A stretch of 31,624 nt of DNA, taken from positions 1-31,624 of the IMG/VR virus record IMGVR_UViG_3300043411_001726; one strand, written 5' to 3'. The position numbers and the translations under genes were made by a program. This DNA is from a virus. The notes beneath the pieces are model-generated. The model did no database searches. It saw nothing but the letters and a program-made list of their open reading frames with translations, and was not told the origin of the DNA. Positions 20,817 to 29,977 of this stretch are shown in pieces; the first letter of the stretch is position 1; each line of letters begins with the position of its first letter.

Positions 20817-23438
20817 CTACCACTGATCCGATGAGAAGTCCCCGGCTTTGTCCAGGTGCTCCCAATCCTTACCGACCGCGACCTCGACCGTAATGGGCAC
20901 GTTGATCCAATCGTAGTGCCTAAAATCTAACATACGGTCTATTACGAACTCGAGGCGCTCGTCCAACTTGTACTTCGGCATGATGAACGTGAGATCGTCA
21001 TGGATCATCAGGCTGGGCTGGGTATCCCAATCATCCGCATCGCGCACGACGCGGGCCATGGCATCCTTGACGAGGCAGGCTTCGTCCGCCTGGATGGGGC
21101 TATTGATGATCTGATTCTGCGTCAGCGGGGCGCGGCGGCGGCGGCCGGAGAGCGCCTCGACATAACCCGTCTTGCGGTAGGAAGCGACGAGGCGCTCCTG
21201 CCATGCCTTGACGCCGGAGAAGATGCGCCAGAAGGCTTCGTACTCCGGCTTGATATAGTTCAGAGGTATCTCGAGATTGTCGGCGACCGAGCCGGCGACG
21301 GAGCCAAAGAACAAGGGGAACGTCCACTTGTTCTTTACGTCCTGCCGCCAGTCCTTCATGATCTTCTTGTCTGTCAGGTTCTGCTTGCCACCGATGCGGC
21401 TGGGGTAAGCATGCGCCAAGCGCTCGGCCCACTCCATGTGCACATCGTACCGTTCCCACAGCGCCTTGACGAAGACAGGGTCCTTGGACTCCATAGCGAT
21501 ATTGCGCGCCTGAATCTGGCCGTAGTCAATGGCGACCATGACGTGCTCGTCCGGCGCTTCGATCTGCGATCTGACTTCCTTCTGCCCCTCATTCCGCTTG
21601 GGCCAATTCTGCCCGTTCGGGTCCTCCATCGACGTCCGGCCGGTCGCTGTAACCGTCGTATTGGTCTGCGGATGCAACATGCCATCATCGTGGAGGTAAG
21701 CACCGCCGACGCGCAAGCCATCATTATACGTCGACTTGACCTTGGTAATCTTGCGCCGGGCCAGGATGTCGTTGGTCAGGGGATTACCGATCAGCTTGAG
21801 GACGTCTTCCTCGACCGAGTAGCTACCGCTTTCCCCGCGCATACCTTCCTTGCGCTTCATCATATCCCTGACGAGGTAGGTCACGTCCGGGTTGTTGGAA
21901 GGGTCGAACCTGGTCCCCTTTAGCCGCTCGAACTCCGCGACCAGCGGGTACTTGGCTATCTTCTCATCGAAGCGACGCAGCTCGGCCGTATACTTGGCGG
22001 ACAGCGCTTCGACCCGATCCTGGTTGACGGGCAAGCCCTTAAGCTGCATCCGGGTCAGCGGTGCGATCTGGTAGAGGTCATCCTCGTACAGGTTCAGGAA
22101 GCCTTCCTTGCGGATGCGGGCCATCTGGATATCGGACAGCATGCAATGGAACTTGGCGTCCATGGCGTTGTAGCGCAGGACGTCGACCAGCGGCTCGTTA
22201 TCGAGATTCTTTGTATCGGTCGTCGACAGGGCCTTAAGCGCCAGCCCGAAATACTGCCGGACGAGGAAATCCAGCGACAACGGCCCCTGCTCATTCTTGC
22301 GCTGGCCTTCGCCGCGCCCTGTGCGCTCGTCGAGGACAGCCGCCTGCGACATGGTATCTTCCCACTCGCTATGGAGCAGGCACCGATCATCAAAATGGGC
22401 AGCCGACCACTCAAGCTCGAACGGGAGATTGTGAACGGCCTTGCGCATACGCGGCTTGTTCAGGAAGGCGGTCCAAATTGTCCGGAGCTGCTTGCGGTGC
22501 TCCAGGCTCCATTTGGCCTGCGAGTGCAAGTAGGGGAAGGCAAGGCTCCGGAGCGGCGTTCCGACCGCGATGGTCAAGACCTTGGCCGTCTTGGCATAAG
22601 GCCGTTTGCTGTTCGTCTCGTAGTCGACGCCGACAACATCGGCTTCCCCGGCCCAGGTCAGAAAGGCTTCGATGCGGGCAAGCCCAGCTTGGGTGCAGTC
22701 TGTCACCCACTCGACGCCTTGCATGGCTTCCTTGGTCGTCACGACCTGGGCCGGGGGCAGGCTGTCTATCTCGGCAAAGGCCCGCGCCAGATCGAAGCGG
22801 AATACCCGCTCGTCTTCCGAGCCCACATCGGAATCCCGCAGGGTGCGCCCCGTGCGCTTCTCGGCCTCGTCACGACTCCGCGTGATATAGGCGGGGTGGT
22901 GGAAGCTGTAGAACCAGCACGTATGGGAGCCGACCTGCACAGGAAGGCGCCGGCCGCGCCAATTGTTCAGGCCCGACTGCCCGGCGGCCCATGAGAGCGG
23001 GATGGCGCCGAAACCGAAGATGGCCTTTGGCTTGGTATGTTCTATGTCCCTAATGATGCTTGGGCGGCAGGACTCCACCTCTACGTAGTCAGGCTCCCGG
23101 TTTTCTGGCGGCCTTGTACGCACTACATTGTTCCACCGGATATCGGGCAGGAACTCGCGCGGGATTTGGGCGCGCAGAAGCTGGCCTGACTTTCCGACGA
23201 AGTGCGCCCGCTCGGCGTCCTCCTGTGCCCCCGGTGCCTCACCGAGGACATAGATCAGCGGCTTGCTGGAACCGGCGGCGGGGATATCGGGGTTCTTGTT
23301 ATTCCATTCCCGGCCCTCGTGCATGGGATGCTTCAGCGGGCAGGCCTTGCACTCCAGCCGATGCAGGAGCTCCAGAGACGGGATTCCGGAGCGCGGTCGA
23401 CTGACGGCGTTCTTACCACCTGAGGCGAAGAAGGACAC
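20817..23438 (-). CDS. polA: DNA polymerase I-type with N-terminal uracil-DNA-glycosylase-like domain
   Basis: 873 residues with three parts. Residues about 20-200 are a family 4-like iron-sulfur UDG domain: C30 and C33 (ECKAC), GEAPGAQED (66-74), C124, C174 and HPAY (181-184). Residues about 260-440 are a 3'-5' exonuclease (VDYETNS 271-277, HNLPFELEW 336-344, YNAMDAKF 423-430). Residues about 450-873 are family A polymerase: TGRTSMEDPNGQNWP, motif A DYGQIQAR (638-645), motif B RQDVKNKWTFPLFFG and motif C MIHDDL (811-816). In motif A the usual steric-gate glutamate is a glutamine, and motif C has HDD instead of HDE. GTG start. The fusion recalls SPO1-type phage polymerases. The UDG part may police uracil or help bind template. 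Confidence 0.93.
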   Translation of the reverse strand: MSFFASGGKNAVSRPRSGIPSLELLHRLECKACPLKHPMHEGREWNNKNPDIPAAGSSKPLIYVLGEAPGAQEDAERAHFVGKSGQLLRAQIPREFLPDIRWNNVVRTRPPENREPDYVEVESCRPSIIRDIEHTKPKAIFGFGAIPLSWAAGQSGLNNWRGRRLPVQVGSHTCWFYSFHHPAYITRSRDEAEKRTGRTLRDSDVGSEDERVFRFDLARAFAEIDSLPPAQVVTTKEAMQGVEWVTDCTQAGLARIEAFLTWAGEADVVGVDYETNSKRPYAKTAKVLTIAVGTPLRSLAFPYLHSQAKWSLEHRKQLRTIWTAFLNKPRMRKAVHNLPFELEWSAAHFDDRCLLHSEWEDTMSQAAVLDERTGRGEGQRKNEQGPLSLDFLVRQYFGLALKALSTTDTKNLDNEPLVDVLRYNAMDAKFHCMLSDIQMARIRKEGFLNLYEDDLYQIAPLTRMQLKGLPVNQDRVEALSAKYTAELRRFDEKIAKYPLVAEFERLKGTRFDPSNNPDVTYLVRDMMKRKEGMRGESGSYSVEEDVLKLIGNPLTNDILARRKITKVKSTYNDGLRVGGAYLHDDGMLHPQTNTTVTATGRTSMEDPNGQNWPKRNEGQKEVRSQIEAPDEHVMVAIDYGQIQARNIAMESKDPVFVKALWERYDVHMEWAERLAHAYPSRIGGKQNLTDKKIMKDWRQDVKNKWTFPLFFGSVAGSVADNLEIPLNYIKPEYEAFWRIFSGVKAWQERLVASYRKTGYVEALSGRRRRAPLTQNQIINSPIQADEACLVKDAMARVVRDADDWDTQPSLMIHDDLTFIMPKYKLDERLEFVIDRMLDFRHYDWINVPITVEVAVGKDWEHLDKAGDFSSDQW

Positions 23439-23445
23439 GGCCGCC

Positions 23446-24507
23446 CTAGGAGGCGGCGATCATATACAGGAACTTCAGGTCCCTGCCCAACAGCGCCAAG
23501 CCCCCTTCCGTGACCAGCATGTGGTCGCAGCGGTCGAGACCCCGCTTGACCAGCACAGGGTCGATCTTGATGGAGACGTCCTTGTGCTTCTTGCCTTCCT
23601 CCAGGTGAATCTCGTCATCGAGTTCACCCAGCGGTGAGACGGCCTTGAGGAACAGGGCGTTGTCGGCGACCTCCATACTGATCGGTTCGGCCAGCTTGCC
23701 GTCGAGGATGACTAGAGCCCGCTCGATAGCCATCTTCATGACGCCGGGGATCTTGACCGCATCCTTGCCGTAACCCTTGGGCAGGACCCTCTCTAGGGCG
23801 CCTGAGAAGTCGCTTGGGTTGGGGGAATCGAGCTGGCGCGCGAAGATACCGACGCCGCCCTTGGTCTCGGCCAGCACGCCGCCCTTGAGAACGGCAAACT
23901 TTGAATCGGCGCCGCAGAGCCGCAGGACCTGCTCGGCGAACGGGGCGGGCACGATCAGGTGCTCTTCGTCATAGCCCTTTGGCACGGCGACGTGCGACCG
24001 GGCGATCGTCTTGGCGTCGGTGGCGTATAAGGTCAGTCCGTCCTCTTCGAGCGCAAAGGTCACGCCGAGCTGATCGGGGTTAGAGACGTCGGAGCCGACG
24101 GCGATCATGACATCGGCCAGCCCCGCCAGGAGCTCCTTGGAGAGTGGCACGAAGTCGGCCGCCTTGACCTTGGGATACTCCCAGACGGCCCGGCTGGCCT
24201 CGAGCAGCGCCAGCTTGGCCTTGGCCTTGGCGGCCTTGAGGTGGGCCTCCTTGCCCTCTGCCGCCGCGTCCAGCTCGATGTTCTTGGCGCCGCTGGCATT
24301 CAGCAGGCCCAAGAGCAAAGCGCCCTTGACGCCGCCCGCCATATCGCCGCACTCGAACGGGGCGCGGATGCCCAGGATATCGTCGTAGGCCGTCAGGTGC
24401 TTCGAACCCAGCCAAATGTGAGTGAGCTCGTCGAGCAGCGCCTTCGACGCGACCGCCGGCTTTATCAGGTCGAGCGCCTTCAGGAATTCCAAACGATCTG
24501 TCTTCAC
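23446..24507 (-). CDS. dnaN: DNA polymerase sliding clamp (DnaN-like)
   Basis: A 353-residue protein with a GTG start, joined as GTGA to the stop of the last small paralogue. The opening MKTDRLEFLKALDLIKPAVA and later ELTHIWLGSKHLTAYDDILG fit the first domain of a beta clamp. Further landmarks are LGVTFALEEDGLTLYATDAK, IARSHVAVP, and GYDEEHLIVPAPFAEQVLRL. The repeated domain pattern is visible though the family is divergent. A processivity ring for the phage polymerase, encoded immediately downstream, is the expected role, with the clamp loader further along. Confidence 0.83.
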   Translation of the reverse strand: MKTDRLEFLKALDLIKPAVASKALLDELTHIWLGSKHLTAYDDILGIRAPFECGDMAGGVKGALLLGLLNASGAKNIELDAAAEGKEAHLKAAKAKAKLALLEASRAVWEYPKVKAADFVPLSKELLAGLADVMIAVGSDVSNPDQLGVTFALEEDGLTLYATDAKTIARSHVAVPKGYDEEHLIVPAPFAEQVLRLCGADSKFAVLKGGVLAETKGGVGIFARQLDSPNPSDFSGALERVLPKGYGKDAVKIPGVMKMAIERALVILDGKLAEPISMEVADNALFLKAVSPLGELDDEIHLEEGKKHKDVSIKIDPVLVKRGLDRCDHMLVTEGGLALLGRDLKFLYMIAAS

Positions 24508-24651
24508 AGCTTATCCCCTTTCAACTGGAGCAGGAGGTCCTGCCCTTTGTGCATGACGTAGAAATAGGAGACGAGGATACTTGCCGCCCCCCCCTTCTAG
24601 CAGAACCCGGATCTTCCACTCGCGCGGGTCGACGGCGAATACGGTCTTCAC
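24504..24651 (-). pseudogene. Fourth small DpdA-array paralogue, frame broken at a C8 run
   Basis: A GTG start (24649-24651) joined as GTGA to the upstream stop opens VKTVFAVDPREWKIRVLLEG. After the G-run (plus-strand C8, 24587-24594) the reading frame must shift by +1 to continue as GAASILVSYFYVMHKG and reach KGDKL with a TGA that overlaps the clamp start as GTGA. Without a shift the frame ends at a TAA at 24511-24513 after 46 residues. The shifted product shows the N-x-L-x-S-Y-like core (S-I-L-V-S-Y) of its three neighbours. One G too many in the run, programmed frameshifting, or natural decay all explain it. Confidence 0.6.
24587..24594. other. C8 homopolymer at the apparent +1 frameshift
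   Basis: Eight Cs on the plus strand (G8 in the mRNA) lie exactly where the paralogue frames break. Seven would restore an uninterrupted reading frame from GTG 24651 to the TGA coupled to the clamp start. Confidence 0.6.
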
Positions 24652-24848
24652 TCGGGGACCCCCTTGAGCCGGCGGCCCTTGACGATGCGGGGGACCTTGG
24701 TTGCGCCGCCCTTGATGTAGGCGACGAACTTGTCATCATCGTTCGGGCACATCCAGTAGGAGAGCAGGACGTTATTCCCGCCCGCGCGCTCGATCGCGTA
24801 GATGAGATGGAAAGCGCTGAGGTTTGGCAAGGCGAACAAAATGCGCAT
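24648..24848 (-). CDS. Third small DpdA-array paralogue (66 aa, intact)
   Basis: Begins MRILFALPNLSAFHLIYAIE, then RAGGNNVLLSYWMCPNDDDK and FVAYIKGGATKV, ending with a basic tail VKGRRLKG. The ATG is joined to the upstream stop as TGATG, so the earlier in-frame start was rejected. The pattern is a short N-terminal strand (R-I-L-F-A), a helix, a strand N-N-V-L-L-S-Y-W and a last helix Y-x-K-G-G. The three adjacent small genes have the same plan. It may be a detached module of the DpdA enzyme encoded upstream. No known family was recognised for the stand-alone form. Confidence 0.8.
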   Translation of the reverse strand: MRILFALPNLSAFHLIYAIERAGGNNVLLSYWMCPNDDDKFVAYIKGGATKVPRIVKGRRLKGVPE

Positions 24849-25005
24849 CAGCCTAGCTCCCCCGTCCGGATATAGTGCCAGAGCCAGTCGGGGTTCCAAC
24901 GCGTGGTGTAGTAATAGCTGAACAGGACGTTAGCCGGGGAGCCCAGCGCTCGCTGATACGGTATGGGGGGCCAAACTTTCCGGAGTTCGCGAAAATGATC
25001 TTCAC
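24848..25005 (-). pseudogene. Second small DpdA-array paralogue, frame broken at a G6 run
   Basis: A GTG at 25003-25005, in GTGA overlap with the upstream stop, gives VKIIFANSGKFGP. Continuing as PIPYQRALGSPANVLFSYYY requires a -1 shift at the C6 run in the mRNA (plus-strand G6, 24965-24970). With it, the N-V-L-x-S-Y core falls at residues 26-31, exactly as in the intact third paralogue. Without a shift the frame ends at a TAG (24853-24855) after 50 residues. An alternative is a continuous 65-residue frame from 25045, but that start lies inside the previous gene and does not resemble the paralogue N-termini. Sequencing miscount, programmed shift or decay are open. Confidence 0.6.
24965..24970. 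other. G6 homopolymer at the apparent -1 frameshift
   Basis: Six Gs on the plus strand (C6 in mRNA, context GGCCCCCCAT) mark the point where the second paralogue changes frame. One additional base would give a single frame from the GTG to the stop. Confidence 0.6.
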
Positions 25006-25274
25006 CGCCGCCCCCGGCGGACGGGGATGACTTCCTCGTCCTCATCCCACTCGGCAGCGGGCGCTTGCATGACCGGCGCCGCTGCGGCGGCCTTGACCCG
25101 CTTCCCCTTGGTCTCGGGCGCGATGCCGGTCCGGCAGTAGGTCTCGAAATCGGCGTCCGTCATATCGCGGGAGAACCAATAGGAGGCCAGCCTGTTGTTG
25201 GCGCCTTCCCGGGTCAGGACGCGGCCCTGATACGCGACCGCCGGCCATTGCGCCAGGAGGAGGGTGAATTTCAC
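25002..25274 (-). CDS. First small DpdA-array paralogue with acidic/basic tail (90 aa, intact)
   Basis: Begins MKFTLLLAQWPAVAYQGRVL, continues TREGANNRLASYWFSRDMTD and FETYCRTGIAPETKGKRVK, and ends with a 35-residue low-complexity tail (AAAAAPVMQAPAAEWDEDEE, then VRRGRR). The core N-N-R-L-A-S-Y-W and Y-C-R-T-G match the other three. The ATG overlaps the dpdA stop (ATGA), so translation is probably coupled to DpdA. A partner or module of DpdA is the working idea; the sequence alone does not give a function. Confidence 0.82.
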   Translation of the reverse strand: MKFTLLLAQWPAVAYQGRVLTREGANNRLASYWFSRDMTDADFETYCRTGIAPETKGKRVKAAAAAPVMQAPAAEWDEDEEVIPVRRGRR

Positions 25275-26131
25275 AGCAGGAAGCCCCCGCCGGTCTGGTG
25301 CTTGAAACGGACCTCGCCGATGGCCGCTTCGAAACGGAGCATGAAATGGACAATGGCGCGGGCGCGGGCTTCATAGTCGGACGCCACCTCGTCGATCGTC
25401 AGCCCGGTCTCGTCCTTGAGGTAGGCGCGGATGCGGGCCTGCACCATAGGCCCCATGGCGTCGTAATGATCGTTTGGCATGCTCTCGCGGTTCTCGTAGC
25501 GGCTGACCGTGACCTTGATGGGCGGCTCGGCATAGTCCGGCTCGCCCGCGCGGTAGATCGGGAAGAAGATTCCGCCATAGGCCGCGGTCAGCGCCCAGCT
25601 TGTCGCATCGCACGTATACCAAGGATAACGGCGCATAAGGTCGAAGCTGGCGACGGCGAAGCCGTGGGTCTTGACCTTTGGGCGGCCTTCCTTGTCACAC
25701 AGCTTGGTGAAGATGGGGTCCAGCCACATGACGGCGCCATCGACGCCCTTGGTGGTGATCGACGGGGCCAGCCCGATATAGTCGGCGCCCGCATCCAGGT
25801 AGCGCTGTACCCATTTGTAGGGCTCCCCGGAGTGCACAACCGGGATCGGGTTCAGGCCGCGCTTGCGCATGTACTCATAGTTCTTGAACGAGGAAGTCGC
25901 CCCGGCTTCGGCCATCGCCCCCGTGCGGACCTGCCCCTTGGTGCCGGGGATCGTATCCAGGTTCACGTAATGGGCGATCAGGTGCTTGTGCTTCTCGATG
26001 TAGTCGCAATACTCATCGATGTCGATGGTAATGCCCTGCGACCATGCGCTGAAGGCACCCGAATCCAACCACAGATTGATGACGGGCTTATCAGCCTTTG
26101 CCGCATCCGTGCTGCGCCTGCGCTCTACCAT
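25271..26131 (-). CDS. dpdA: DpdA-type 7-deazaguanine DNA transglycosylase
   Basis: 286 residues. The core begins INLWLDSGAFSAWSQG with the catalytic-type aspartate D23, then YVNLDTIPG, VVHSGEPYKWVQRYLDAGAD, YIGLAPS and VKTHGFAVASFDLM, and ends the catalytic region with TCDATSW (D175). This is the phage DpdA branch of the tRNA-guanine transglycosylase fold, which swaps guanine in DNA for a 7-deazaguanine base such as preQ0. FolE, QueD and QueC genes surround it. The first 16 residues (M-V-E-R-R-R-S-T-D-A...) match the leader of terminase and RecA; the longer N-terminal region I associate with phage DpdA relatives is absent. Which sub-family (DpdA1-4) is uncertain. Confidence 0.9.
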   Translation of the reverse strand: MVERRRSTDAAKADKPVINLWLDSGAFSAWSQGITIDIDEYCDYIEKHKHLIAHYVNLDTIPGTKGQVRTGAMAEAGATSSFKNYEYMRKRGLNPIPVVHSGEPYKWVQRYLDAGADYIGLAPSITTKGVDGAVMWLDPIFTKLCDKEGRPKVKTHGFAVASFDLMRRYPWYTCDATSWALTAAYGGIFFPIYRAGEPDYAEPPIKVTVSRYENRESMPNDHYDAMGPMVQARIRAYLKDETGLTIDEVASDYEARARAIVHFMLRFEAAIGEVRFKHQTGGGFLL

Positions 26132-26173: not shown

Positions 26174-26749
26174 CTAGATAACGGCATTGCGGCTGCCCAG
26201 CTCCACCAAGCGCAGGAACTCTCCGCGCGCAATGGGCTTGTCCTTGAAGGCCCCCGTCAGGGCGGAGGTCGTCGTGATGGTCCCGCGCGCCCTGACGCCG
26301 CGCGATTCCATGCACATATGCCGGCACTGGATGACGACCCCGACCGCGACCGGCTTGAGGACCTCCTGGATCGTATCGGCGATCTGCCGGGTCATGCGCT
26401 CCTGGACCTGCAAGCGACGTGAGAAGACCTCGACCAGCCGGGCGAACTTTGAAAGGCCCACGACGCGGCCGTTGGGGATGTAGCCGACGTGCGCCAGCCC
26501 CCAGAACGGCGCGAGGTGGTGCTCACAACTCGAGTACACGGGGATATTCGAGACCAGCACGACCTCATCGTAGCTCTCCGCCCCATCGGCGAACGACTTG
26601 AGCAGGGAAGCGGGGTCGGCCTCGTAGCCGGAGGTATACTCGGCCCATGCCTTGACCATGCGCTCCGGGGTCTCGGCCAAGCCTTCGCGCTCGCATTCGG
26701 GGGCCAGCTCCCGCAGGAAGGCCCCCGCCGTCTTAACCGTCAGCGCCAT
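26174..26749 (-). CDS. folE: GTP cyclohydrolase I (FolE)
   Basis: 191 residues in the type I FolE family. Zinc ligands are visible in SSCEHHLAPF (C75, H78) and CRHMCMESRGV (C146); the intervening GYIPNGRVVGLSKFARLVEVF, then RLQVQERMTRQIADTI are canonical. It converts GTP to dihydroneopterin triphosphate, the first step toward 7-deazaguanines via QueD. The chosen start MALTVKTAGAFLRELAPECE lies four bases after the queC stop with a GGAAG ribosome-binding site. The open frame extends 70 codons upstream, but that stretch overlaps queC and has no FolE similarity. Confidence 0.96.
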   Translation of the reverse strand: MALTVKTAGAFLRELAPECEREGLAETPERMVKAWAEYTSGYEADPASLLKSFADGAESYDEVVLVSNIPVYSSCEHHLAPFWGLAHVGYIPNGRVVGLSKFARLVEVFSRRLQVQERMTRQIADTIQEVLKPVAVGVVIQCRHMCMESRGVRARGTITTTSALTGAFKDKPIARGEFLRLVELGSRNAVI

Positions 26750-26753
26750 GGGG

Positions 26754-27560
26754 CTAATACTTCCGAAGCCGTTGTTCGAGATCGACGATCTTCTCGTAGA
26801 CGCTCTCACCGCGCAAGTCTTGGAGAAGCCCGGAGTAGTTGGTGTAATTCCTCTCCTCAGGAAGGGCCATCGCGCCCTCAAGCCACGCCCGGACGACCAG
26901 CGGGTCCGGGGAATTGGCTTCCTCGAATGACTTCTGGCGCAACAGGCTTGCCCGGTCATGCCCCGTCGGCGGGTAGAGGCCGTCGTAAGCCGTATGGGAA
27001 TAGGCCAGCGCCCTGTAGCAGCCGGGCAGGGACCGGGCCAGATCGACGGCTTCCCCCTTGGAGAGGTAGAGCAGCGGGCAGTCGAAGGTGATCTTGCGCT
27101 CCAGCCCGGCCAGGATGGTCGTCTCTAGTGCATGAATGAACGGGGCGCGGCAGTCCGGATAGCCGCCCATGCCATGCGCCAAGCCCAGACTGATTGTATC
27201 GATGCCCTTGACGAAGGCGCGGTTGGCGGCCAGCGTCATGAAGAGCAGGTTGCGGGCCGGCACAAAGGTCTTCTCCAGCCCGCCGGGCAGGACCTTGTGC
27301 GACTCGTATTCCTCCAGCTTCGCATTGGGGTCGGTCAGGGGGCTTGTGCCCTGAAGGATCGAGCCGATCTTGAGGACCTCGTGGTCCTTGATGCCGACCA
27401 TCTTGGCAATGATCAGGGCGGACTCGATCTCGATCGAATTCTTCTGGTTGTAGTCGATAGTCAGGGCGGAGACATTCTCGACGCCCCGGTCGGCGACCGC
27501 TTTATATAGTACAGTCGTCGAATCCTGACCGCCACTGAAGACTACAAGCGTTTTACTCAT
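26754..27560 (-). CDS. queC: QueC-like preQ0 synthase with a degenerate zinc site
   Basis: 268 residues with the PP-loop SGGQDSTT (9-16), DYNQKNSIE, FVPARNLLF and GGYPDCRAPF, all QueC hallmarks. QueC normally turns 7-carboxy-7-deazaguanine, ATP and ammonia into preQ0 and holds zinc with four cysteines in the pattern CYxG...CGxCxxCxLR. Here that stretch reads AYDGLYPPTGHDRASLLR (191-208), with alanine, threonine, aspartate and serine in the four positions. The chain also continues past the usual end by about 50 residues. The protein may be active with a metal-free structure, or may have changed role. It has a GGAGGG ribosome-binding site and lies downstream of a strong hairpin. Confidence 0.9.
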   Translation of the reverse strand: MSKTLVVFSGGQDSTTVLYKAVADRGVENVSALTIDYNQKNSIEIESALIIAKMVGIKDHEVLKIGSILQGTSPLTDPNAKLEEYESHKVLPGGLEKTFVPARNLLFMTLAANRAFVKGIDTISLGLAHGMGGYPDCRAPFIHALETTILAGLERKITFDCPLLYLSKGEAVDLARSLPGCYRALAYSHTAYDGLYPPTGHDRASLLRQKSFEEANSPDPLVVRAWLEGAMALPEERNYTNYSGLLQDLRGESVYEKIVDLEQRLRKY

Positions 27561-28373: not shown

Positions 28374-28898
28374 TCAAAACGGATAGTACGCCGCGCAATT
28401 CGGGGTCTCATGTACAACTATCTGCGACAGACGGGCAAGACCTTCTGACCGCTCTACGACGCGTGGGACAAGCCGGTTGAACCAGTGCCGCGCCAGCACC
28501 TCGGCCGTCGGCGTATCCCCGATAAGGTACATCTTATGCTCGATACCGAGAGCCTCGTCCTCGAAGATTCCACCGGAGCAGCCATAGCGCTCTACCGTAT
28601 CCCTTTGATGTTCGATAAGAACGCTTGGAATGAAAAGCGACAGCAGCGGGTCCTTGACATGCAGAATAGTCGCGTGATCGCAGGGCGTATCGATCTCGGC
28701 CATCATCTCCTCTTTCAGAAACCCGAAATCAAGCGTCATGCCTTGCTGCTCCCCCATCACCTGGAGCGGCCCCGAGCAGACGGCTTCGATTGTGTAGCGG
28801 TGCCCGTGCAACCGCCTGCACTTGGAGCCGTGCTGCGCGACCCTATGCGCCGCGTCGATGCCGATCTCCCGGCGGATGGCAAAATCCCTAAGCATCAT
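28374..28898 (-). CDS. queD: QueD (6-carboxy-tetrahydropterin synthase)
   Basis: 174 residues of the PTPS/QueD fold. Zinc histidines are H18 (DAAHRV) and H31/H33 (RLHGHRY), with the catalytic cysteine C27 before them (SKCRRLHGH); TLDFGFLKEEM, PCDHATIL and the end VVHETPNCAAYYPF complete the signature. It converts dihydroneopterin triphosphate into 6-carboxytetrahydropterin, the substrate for QueE. An insertion of about 30 residues follows D74-H75. Two ATG codons are in tandem at the start (28898 and 28895); GGAGAAGT is better spaced for the second. The gene overlaps the DUF1643 gene by 11 bases. Confidence 0.94.
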   Translation of the reverse strand: MMLRDFAIRREIGIDAAHRVAQHGSKCRRLHGHRYTIEAVCSGPLQVMGEQQGMTLDFGFLKEEMMAEIDTPCDHATILHVKDPLLSLFIPSVLIEHQRDTVERYGCSGGIFEDEALGIEHKMYLIGDTPTAEVLARHWFNRLVPRVVERSEGLARLSQIVVHETPNCAAYYPF

Positions 28899-29442
28899 AC
28901 TTCTCCAATTTCTCGCTGTAAGCCAGACGACTCGGGTGCCGGGGGCTTCCGTTGGCCGTCCTGCCCAAGCAGAATATCTTCTTACCGCTGGCCCTGAGGG
29001 TGATCAGCGTCTCGGCGGCGTAGTACTCGAACTTGGGGTCGAGGCGGCCCCATGCCGCAATGATCCGGTCGGCCAGCGCGGCCTGTTCGCGGAGGATATA
29101 CATGTTCTCCGACGACCGCACGTCGGCGCCCAGCTTGAGCAGGTCTTGCGGGTGCGTCGCGCGGTAGTCCATGATGTTGCATTTGGCGTAGTCGTCACCG
29201 CCGCCCTGAATCGTGAACTCGATTTCCTTGCGGATGGTCAGATCATCGGAAATGGCGTTGGCCGTGCTGGGGTTCATGCCGACCCACAACCAGCGGCGCT
29301 TGGGATGCTTGGTCCATGACCGGGTCAGCAAAGGGCGGTAAGCCTTGGTCGGACCGAAGAAGGTAGCATCGCCCCGGCAGCCTTTGAGCATGGGCATGGC
29401 CTTGGCGCCGCCCGGATCGTGCTCAGGCGTCAGCAAGCGCAT
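28888..29442 (-). CDS. DUF1643 family protein (184 aa)
   Basis: The segment RWLWVGMNPSTANAISDDLT, with RKEIEFTIQ, AKCNIMDYRATHPQDLLKLG and KIFCLGRTANGSPRHPSRL, matches DUF1643, a family of unknown function in bacteria and phages. The true start is ATG 29440-29442: a strong GGGAGGT ribosome-binding site lies six bases upstream, and it overlaps the sigma-like gene by 20 bases. The 139 codons upstream of this are a frame shadow; a later ATG at 29397 has no ribosome-binding site. It lies in the deazaguanine cluster, so a link to nucleotide or DNA modification is possible but only from position. Confidence 0.85.
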   Translation of the reverse strand: MRLLTPEHDPGGAKAMPMLKGCRGDATFFGPTKAYRPLLTRSWTKHPKRRWLWVGMNPSTANAISDDLTIRKEIEFTIQGGGDDYAKCNIMDYRATHPQDLLKLGADVRSSENMYILREQAALADRIIAAWGRLDPKFEYYAAETLITLRASGKKIFCLGRTANGSPRHPSRLAYSEKLEKYDA

Positions 29443-29977
29443 TCTTGACCTCCCAAACCATATCGATGGCTTCGGGATCAACACCGGCGACGCGGCACAA
29501 GCGCTCGTTGATCGTCTCCTTGTGGCGGGAGGTCTGCCGGAGCTGGCCTTGCAGGGCGCGGCGGCCGGCTTCTGTCTCGAAGGCTGCCAGGAAGCGCGTG
29601 ACGCAAAGAGGAGCCTGCGCCAACTTGACCGCCAGCGTGCCCTCCTCGGGCACAAGGCCGACGCCGACATCTCCGGTATCGAGGGCTTCACCGTCAGGAG
29701 TAACGACGGCATCGAAAGAGACCTCGGAGATCGAACGCGTGCGCTTGTTCGCGAGATTGTGGATGCGGTTGATGTAGGAGATTTTGAAGAGGGCGACGAA
29801 TTGCGCCATTTGGAGGTCTGGGTATTTTGCGCGGACGCGCGCCCAGACGATATACCCATCCTGAATCAGATCATCAAGATCATACCAGGATGCGACCCGC
29901 CAGAAATTCCGCTTTGCTGTCCGGGCAATCCAGACCTGTAATCCCTTGTCGAGATACCGGTCGTTTCGTTGTACCAT
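29423..29977 (-). CDS. Sigma-factor-like protein (region 2 recognisable)
   Basis: 184 residues. The first 90 follow sigma70 region 2: VWIARTAKRNFWRVASWYDL, then DDLIQDGYIVWARVRAKYPD, LFKISYINRIHNLANKRTRS. The D-L-x-Q-x-G-Y-I pattern with a following arginine helix fits regions 2.1-2.3. The C-terminal 80 residues have two helical segments (AGRRALQGQLRQTSRHKETI, GVDPEAIDMVWEVKNALA) where region 4 would be, without a clear helix-turn-helix. Phage sigma-like proteins redirect host RNA polymerase to phage promoters. It is preceded by a 148-base gap, so it may start a transcription unit. Confidence 0.7.
   Translation of the reverse strand: MVQRNDRYLDKGLQVWIARTAKRNFWRVASWYDLDDLIQDGYIVWARVRAKYPDLQMAQFVALFKISYINRIHNLANKRTRSISEVSFDAVVTPDGEALDTGDVGVGLVPEEGTLAVKLAQAPLCVTRFLAAFETEAGRRALQGQLRQTSRHKETINERLCRVAGVDPEAIDMVWEVKNALADA

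Follow-up and report, generated by a model that had tools for sequence, protein, structure and literature searches.

The DpdA proteins of phages 9g and CAjan and the structurally solved preQ0 insertase DpdA (PDB 7ui4) share a common core with DSGAFS and HGF motifs, and their genes are linked to folE, queC, and queD. The His residue of the HGF motif has been described as conserved in DpdA (PMC6884629). In 9g and CAjan DpdA and in 7ui4, the whole TIM barrel is one chain that carries the first quarter at its N terminus. Bacterial TGT has the same (beta-alpha)8 fold as DpdA and is also a single chain, which acts on tRNA and has no detached parts. TIM barrels are thought to have arisen from smaller beta-alpha units. 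In bacterial phasevarions (the restriction-modification subunits Mod and HsdS), simple repeats in an ORF turn single subunits of a DNA-modifying enzyme on or off. The chains of S. pneumoniae TrpA swap a helix0-beta1-alpha1-beta2 segment, and two chains together re-form the active site (PMC7008512); because TrpA exchanges such a piece, a TIM barrel appears to tolerate a quarter supplied in trans.

The DNA analyzed here (the window) is the whole 31,624-nucleotide stretch of IMG/VR virus record IMGVR_UViG_3300043411_001726. In the window, unlike in the DpdA proteins named above, the barrel quarter is detached from the DpdA core and multiplied. Similar rows of small genes occur in many other uncultured phages, with short DNA repeats that seem to act as on-off switches for the parts. 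The arrangement resembles TrpA in that beta1-alpha1-beta2 would be contributed by a second chain and the active site would combine two chains, whereas the TrpA swap takes place between identical full-length chains, with no separate gene and no paralogue array (PMC7008512). Phasevarions concern bacterial methyltransferases, whereas the present family comprises phage quarter-barrel modules beside a base-exchange enzyme, with a putative role in specificity.

A short dpdA gene linked to folE, queC, and queD

On the minus strand of the window, queD, queC, and folE are followed by a short dpdA gene, four small sequences, a clamp-like gene without a Pfam match, and a gene for DNA polymerase A (Table 1). 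The short protein is recognizably a DpdA: in addition to its match to phrog_887, it shows about 39% identity with the DpdA of Edwardsiella phage ZHS, and its KTHGFAVAS segment contains the His of the HGF motif, which is invariant in both DpdA alignments. In Foldseek, the fold modelled for relatives of this protein matches DpdA and TGT, and all three linked genes were identified by Pfam matches. However, the chain does not comprise a complete (beta-alpha)8 barrel. As the earlier note had observed, it starts about 20 residues ahead of LDSGAFS; the first 54 columns of phrog_887 are missing, and the alignment places the start just before beta3. On sequence grounds, we class the protein as a putative split variant of DpdA rather than a standard DpdA.

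Table 1. Features of the window discussed in the text
Feature	Position	Strand	Remarks
dpdA core	25271-26131	-	TIM-barrel strands beta3-beta8 only; phrog_887 E 2.1e-44 from column 55
P1	25002-25274	-	Intact detached module, ATWL class; GTG start overlaps dpdA stop; basic C-terminal tail
P2	24848-25005	-	Frame-broken; beta1 KIIFANSGK in GTG 25005 frame, beta2 NVLFSYYY in frame ending at 24848
C6 run (minus strand)	24965-24970	-	In P2 between beta1 and beta2
P3	24648-24848	-	Intact detached module; ATG start overlaps stop of P2 second frame
P4	24504-24651	-	Frame-broken; beta1 KTVFAVDPR in GTG 24651 frame, beta2 SILVSYFYV in frame ending at 24504
G8 run (minus strand)	24587-24594	-	At P4 frame break; sole homopolymer of at least 7 in the 31.6-kb window
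Clamp-like gene	23446-24507	-	Closes the array; named by position and annotated gene order in Edwardsiella phage ZHS
DNA polymerase A	20817-23438	-	After clamp-like gene; Pfam UDG 1e-15, exonuclease, pol A
folE	26174-26959	-	preQ0 pathway; Pfam GTP_cyclohydroI 5e-66
queC	26754-27560	-	preQ0 pathway; Pfam QueC 9e-39
queD	28374-28898	-	preQ0 pathway; Pfam PTPS 8e-28
DUF1643 gene	28888-29859	-	Adjoins queD; Pfam 7e-27

Four small sequences between dpdA and the clamp-like gene

The stretch between dpdA and the clamp-like gene (24504-25274, minus strand) holds four similar small sequences, P1 to P4, which follow dpdA without a gap and are chained through overlapping stops and starts. A profile hidden Markov model (HMM), built from hand-picked seeds and trained on 230 modules from other phages with the window sequences removed, was run on the 794 ORFs of the six window frames, and its top four matches were exactly the four modules: P1 (20.8 bits, E 1.4e-5), the second half of P4 (16.3 bits, E 3.5e-4), P3 (13.9 bits, E 1.9e-3), and the second half of P2 (9.9 bits, E 0.033). 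The fifth-ranked ORF scored 3.5 bits (E 3.4). All residues that are invariant in the ATWL class are retained in P1.

The earlier note had described four tandem paralogous genes here; four similar sequences are indeed present, but only P1 and P3 are intact genes. In three-frame translation, the opening of P2 at GTG 25005 reads KIIFANSGKFGPP, and its second strand (NVLFSYYYTTR...YIRTGELG) lies in another frame, which ends at 24848. Likewise, the opening of P4 at GTG 24651 reads KTVFAVDPREWKIRVLLEGG, with SILVSYFYVMHKG in the other frame, which ends at 24504. P2 and P4 had evidently been read across frames as single genes.

Homology of the modules to the first quarter of the DpdA barrel

Canonical phage DpdAs open with MKIYLAA...ILESYHYV...VFLDSGAFSA. 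In an AlphaFold2 model of one of them (L005; pLDDT 87, pTM 0.83), which has eight barrel strands, the strands at residues 2-6 and 37-40 precede the LDSGAFS strand (60-63), and five strands follow it. Because the first two of the eight modelled strands precede LDSGAFS, the N-terminal segment is predicted to be beta1-alpha1-beta2-alpha2, in keeping with the earlier suggestion that full-length DpdAs carry a comparable segment. Foldseek with the canonical model found TGTs and other TIM barrels; no TGT was among the PDB sequences retrieved with the canonical profile.

The detached modules of the ZHS-like group align in register with the fused N-terminal segments of environmental DpdAs (hhalign 88%, P 3e-6, 35 columns), and these fused segments in turn match canonical DpdA in profile-profile comparison (78 to 91%). 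Direct comparison of the detached modules with canonical DpdA is weak (hhalign 4 to 15%), as are the individual single-HMM cross-matches between the detached and fused sets, so that profile-profile comparison was required. By this profile homology, the four small sequences are homologues of the N-terminal segment that the window DpdA lacks, and the earlier proposal of detached N-terminal modules is borne out. Pfam, PHROGs, and NCBIfam hold no family for them, and recognition of the module family allows many very small phage genes that had lacked annotation to be identified. An origin of the modules from nucleoside 2-deoxyribosyltransferase was considered and rejected: hhalign spans only 9 columns (detached) or 17 columns (fused), versus 35 with the DpdA segments, and homology does not extend beyond the first strand.

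Three arrangements of the barrel quarter among relatives

In relatives of the window locus, the barrel quarter is (i) fused to the N terminus of DpdA, (ii) fused to its C terminus, as in a circular permutation, or (iii) detached in arrays around dpdA. The N-terminal fusion is found in canonical DpdAs and in many environmental DpdAs, including those of L025 and L026, which are relatives of ZHS DpdA. In phage ZHS itself (L006), the space downstream of folE (2881-2995) is occupied by an in-frame module, MILWPGGSPDYMKAL..., and the annotated dpdA start (MIDPSEF) is probably too late. In ZHS-like phages, the modules are separated from the clamp gene by a nucleoside 2-deoxyribosyltransferase-like gene (L006, 4736-5146).

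In the C-terminally fused DpdAs (L002, L004, L029, L030, L128, L130, L143, L154, and L161), the core opens with beta3, and beyond beta8 and the C-terminal helices a linker leads to the module. An AlphaFold2 model of the L161 protein (pLDDT 83.6, pTM 0.81) shows the six core strands, a low-confidence linker near residues 270-290, and then a beta-alpha-beta-alpha block at 296-340 with pLDDT up to 96. Core and module make up about 0.82 of the chain, so that the pTM of 0.81 suggests that the module is positioned relative to the core. Foldseek TM scores against TGTs, calculated by query length, are mostly 0.33 to 0.39 for L161 versus 0.47 to 0.57 for the unpermuted model; in models of this kind, the lower scores are what a permutation would be expected to give, not proof of one. 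From the strand count, confidence, and pTM of the single-chain models, we infer that the barrel would be closed.

Detached modules, encoded by genes for about 55 to 65 amino acids before as well as after dpdA, are present in 81 of 111 noncanonical loci versus 1 of 76 canonical ones (187 distinct dpdA loci), and the split that the earlier note had posited is thus shared by related phages. At least three detached modules occur in 39 of the 187 loci, and the first downstream module starts within 60 nucleotides of the dpdA stop in 51 of 77 loci. At a threshold of 10 bits, the family profile gave 351 matches near dpdA and none in shuffled ORFs or on the opposite strand, although array counts are slightly inflated, since each half of a broken module may be counted as a match. 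Two members of the same class rarely share an array (2 pairs versus 8.8 expected).

An N-terminally fused module is present in 44 of the 111 noncanonical loci, many of which also have detached modules; not every module, therefore, can be a missing quarter. The persistence of modules beside DpdAs that already have one fused agrees with an alternative in which they are separate accessory proteins, derived from DpdA but acting apart from the barrel (e.g., in DNA binding or anti-restriction), and in which the basic tails after Y-x-R-T-G that P1, P3, and the C-terminally fused modules carry would bind DNA. We consider this alternative unlikely as a whole. When scans were started from the modules (TPGT and ATWL classes, with some contigs retrieved by both), a DpdA core was found within 10 kb in 57 of 57 loci and was mostly adjacent, in line with the association first noticed in the window; moreover, several phages have a DpdA with a module of the same class at its C terminus, and the short DpdAs would otherwise be two barrel strands short.

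A tblastn search of cultured phages with P3 and the TPGT and ATWL consensuses returned nothing relevant, and this route thus led to no cultured phage beyond the ZHS-like group. In a genome collection, the TPGT class had no match and the ATWL class matched one contig of a Spirochaetes MAG (L265, MWCI01000084.1). This 6.3-kb contig, binned as Spirochaetes, carries dpdA and three module-like ORFs and is probably a phage fragment. Two more modules are located upstream of dpdA in L028 (4642-5831); the frame break of one of them coincides with a (TC)12 repeat.

Frame breaks at short repeats

The two strands beta1 and beta2 lie in different frames in 31 of 273 module matches, while 219 modules are intact. 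None of the DpdA cores in 121 loci is split over frames, which argues against general sequencing error. Breaks always fall between beta1 and beta2, and most have a repeat, (GA)n, G8-9, C7-9, (TA)n, or (TC)12, at that position. With A/T homopolymers excluded, repeats number 2.07 per kb in modules versus 0.042 per kb elsewhere in these loci (about 50-fold; p 4e-83), and none was found in 10.4 kb of canonical fused modules. They cluster 30 to 60 nucleotides into the gene, after beta1. Modules with repeats occur in 31 of 106 loci; they are uncommon among ZHS-like phages, at 2 of 35 modules.

Tract length decides whether the ORF is intact in related contigs of about 90% identity, as in a contingency locus. 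For the module NTPDRVKEEK, the C8 tract of L224 leaves the ORF intact, and C9 (L226) or C7 (L247) breaks it; for the module GVPGG, the intact copy has G9 (L226) and the broken copies have G8 (L224 and L247). Between contig pairs of more than 97% identity, no change in module tracts was seen. We regard live phase variation in the module family as very likely from these sequence patterns. In the window, repeat tracts likewise lie inside the ORFs but are modest (G8 in P4 and only C6 in P2), and two of the five runs of at least 6 fall within the 0.77-kb array; such runs are predicted by composition alone, yet they are scarce elsewhere in the window genome. No close relative of the window was found in which the tract lengths could be compared. 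The signs of switching in the window itself are suggestive only, and live phase variation in this phage is, on balance, probable.

Two other explanations of the breaks were weighed. In the first, the modules would be decaying remnants of duplicated dpdA 5' ends, the broken ones being pseudogenes or assembly errors. Two of the four window modules are broken, sequencing errors are common in homopolymers, and one detached module (L163, 2635-2805) continues into a vestigial LDSGAF followed by a stop, and so looks like a severed 5' end of dpdA. Nevertheless, decay is very improbable: the median dN/dS for orthologous modules is 0.16 (27 pairs, including a few fused segments), which shows purifying selection; classes are conserved over 10 to 37 loci (ATWL, 37; TPGT, 17; APGNE, 10); and the number of intact modules, the unbroken DpdA cores, and the constant position of the breaks, at dinucleotide tracts as well as homopolymers, all speak against it. 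In the second, programmed ribosomal or transcriptional slippage at the runs would yield full P2 and P4 without switching of the DNA. Slippage is possible at the G8 and C6 runs, and the second-half frames of P2 and P4 each run precisely up to where the next gene starts. However, classic slippery sites do not include tracts such as (GA)n, (TA)n, or (TC)12, and because the length of a tract varies among orthologues, the frame is kept in some copies and lost in others; we thus consider frameshifting very improbable.

Proposed split, switchable DpdA

The reading that we favor, and consider moderately likely as a whole, is that of a split, circularly permutable TIM barrel with detached quarter-barrel modules that are switched by repeats. 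The window DpdA chain would supply beta3 to beta8, and the missing quarter would come from a separate chain, most likely P1, which is the best candidate because its start overlaps the dpdA stop and it resembles the C-terminally fused modules of related DpdAs. Assembly of a module with the DpdA core in trans is likely on this evidence. The other modules would be alternative partners for the core. Slipped-strand mispairing at the short repeats between beta1 and beta2 would bring single modules into or out of frame, so that phages of one population would have DpdA with differing sets of partners; in the state captured in the window, P1 and P3 would be "on" and P2 and P4 "off." The earlier note's module idea stands in this reading, although it had missed the frame breaks, the apparent phase variation, and the circular permutation by C-terminal fusion.

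CAjan DpdA modifies GA and GGC sites, as cited in PMC8306585, and modules might conceivably shift the target context. An effect of the modules on which guanines are replaced is possible but falls short of probable. More doubtful is the further proposal that the modules are phase-variable libraries of interchangeable quarter-barrel subunits for one split DpdA core, which would redirect 7-deazaguanine contexts and diversify the modification against host restriction. If it were true, this would be a combinatorial, multichain TIM-barrel enzyme without earlier description. Phase-variable switching of the partners, if it occurs, would amount to a phage equivalent of the bacterial phasevarions, with DNA base replacement as its target. 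The occurrence of the same quarter barrel in N-terminal, C-terminal, and detached positions is in any case a natural test of TIM-barrel assembly from smaller units. The core is a DpdA, and its organization is new as far as accessible sources show: neither a split DpdA nor phage repeats of this kind are described in the accessible literature.

A search of IMG/VR for relatives of the window DNA polymerase returned one distant contig only. This polymerase has a uracil-DNA-glycosylase-superfamily domain fused N-terminally, in front of the exonuclease and pol A domains, and its cysteine-rich N terminus is also present in ZHS-like relatives.
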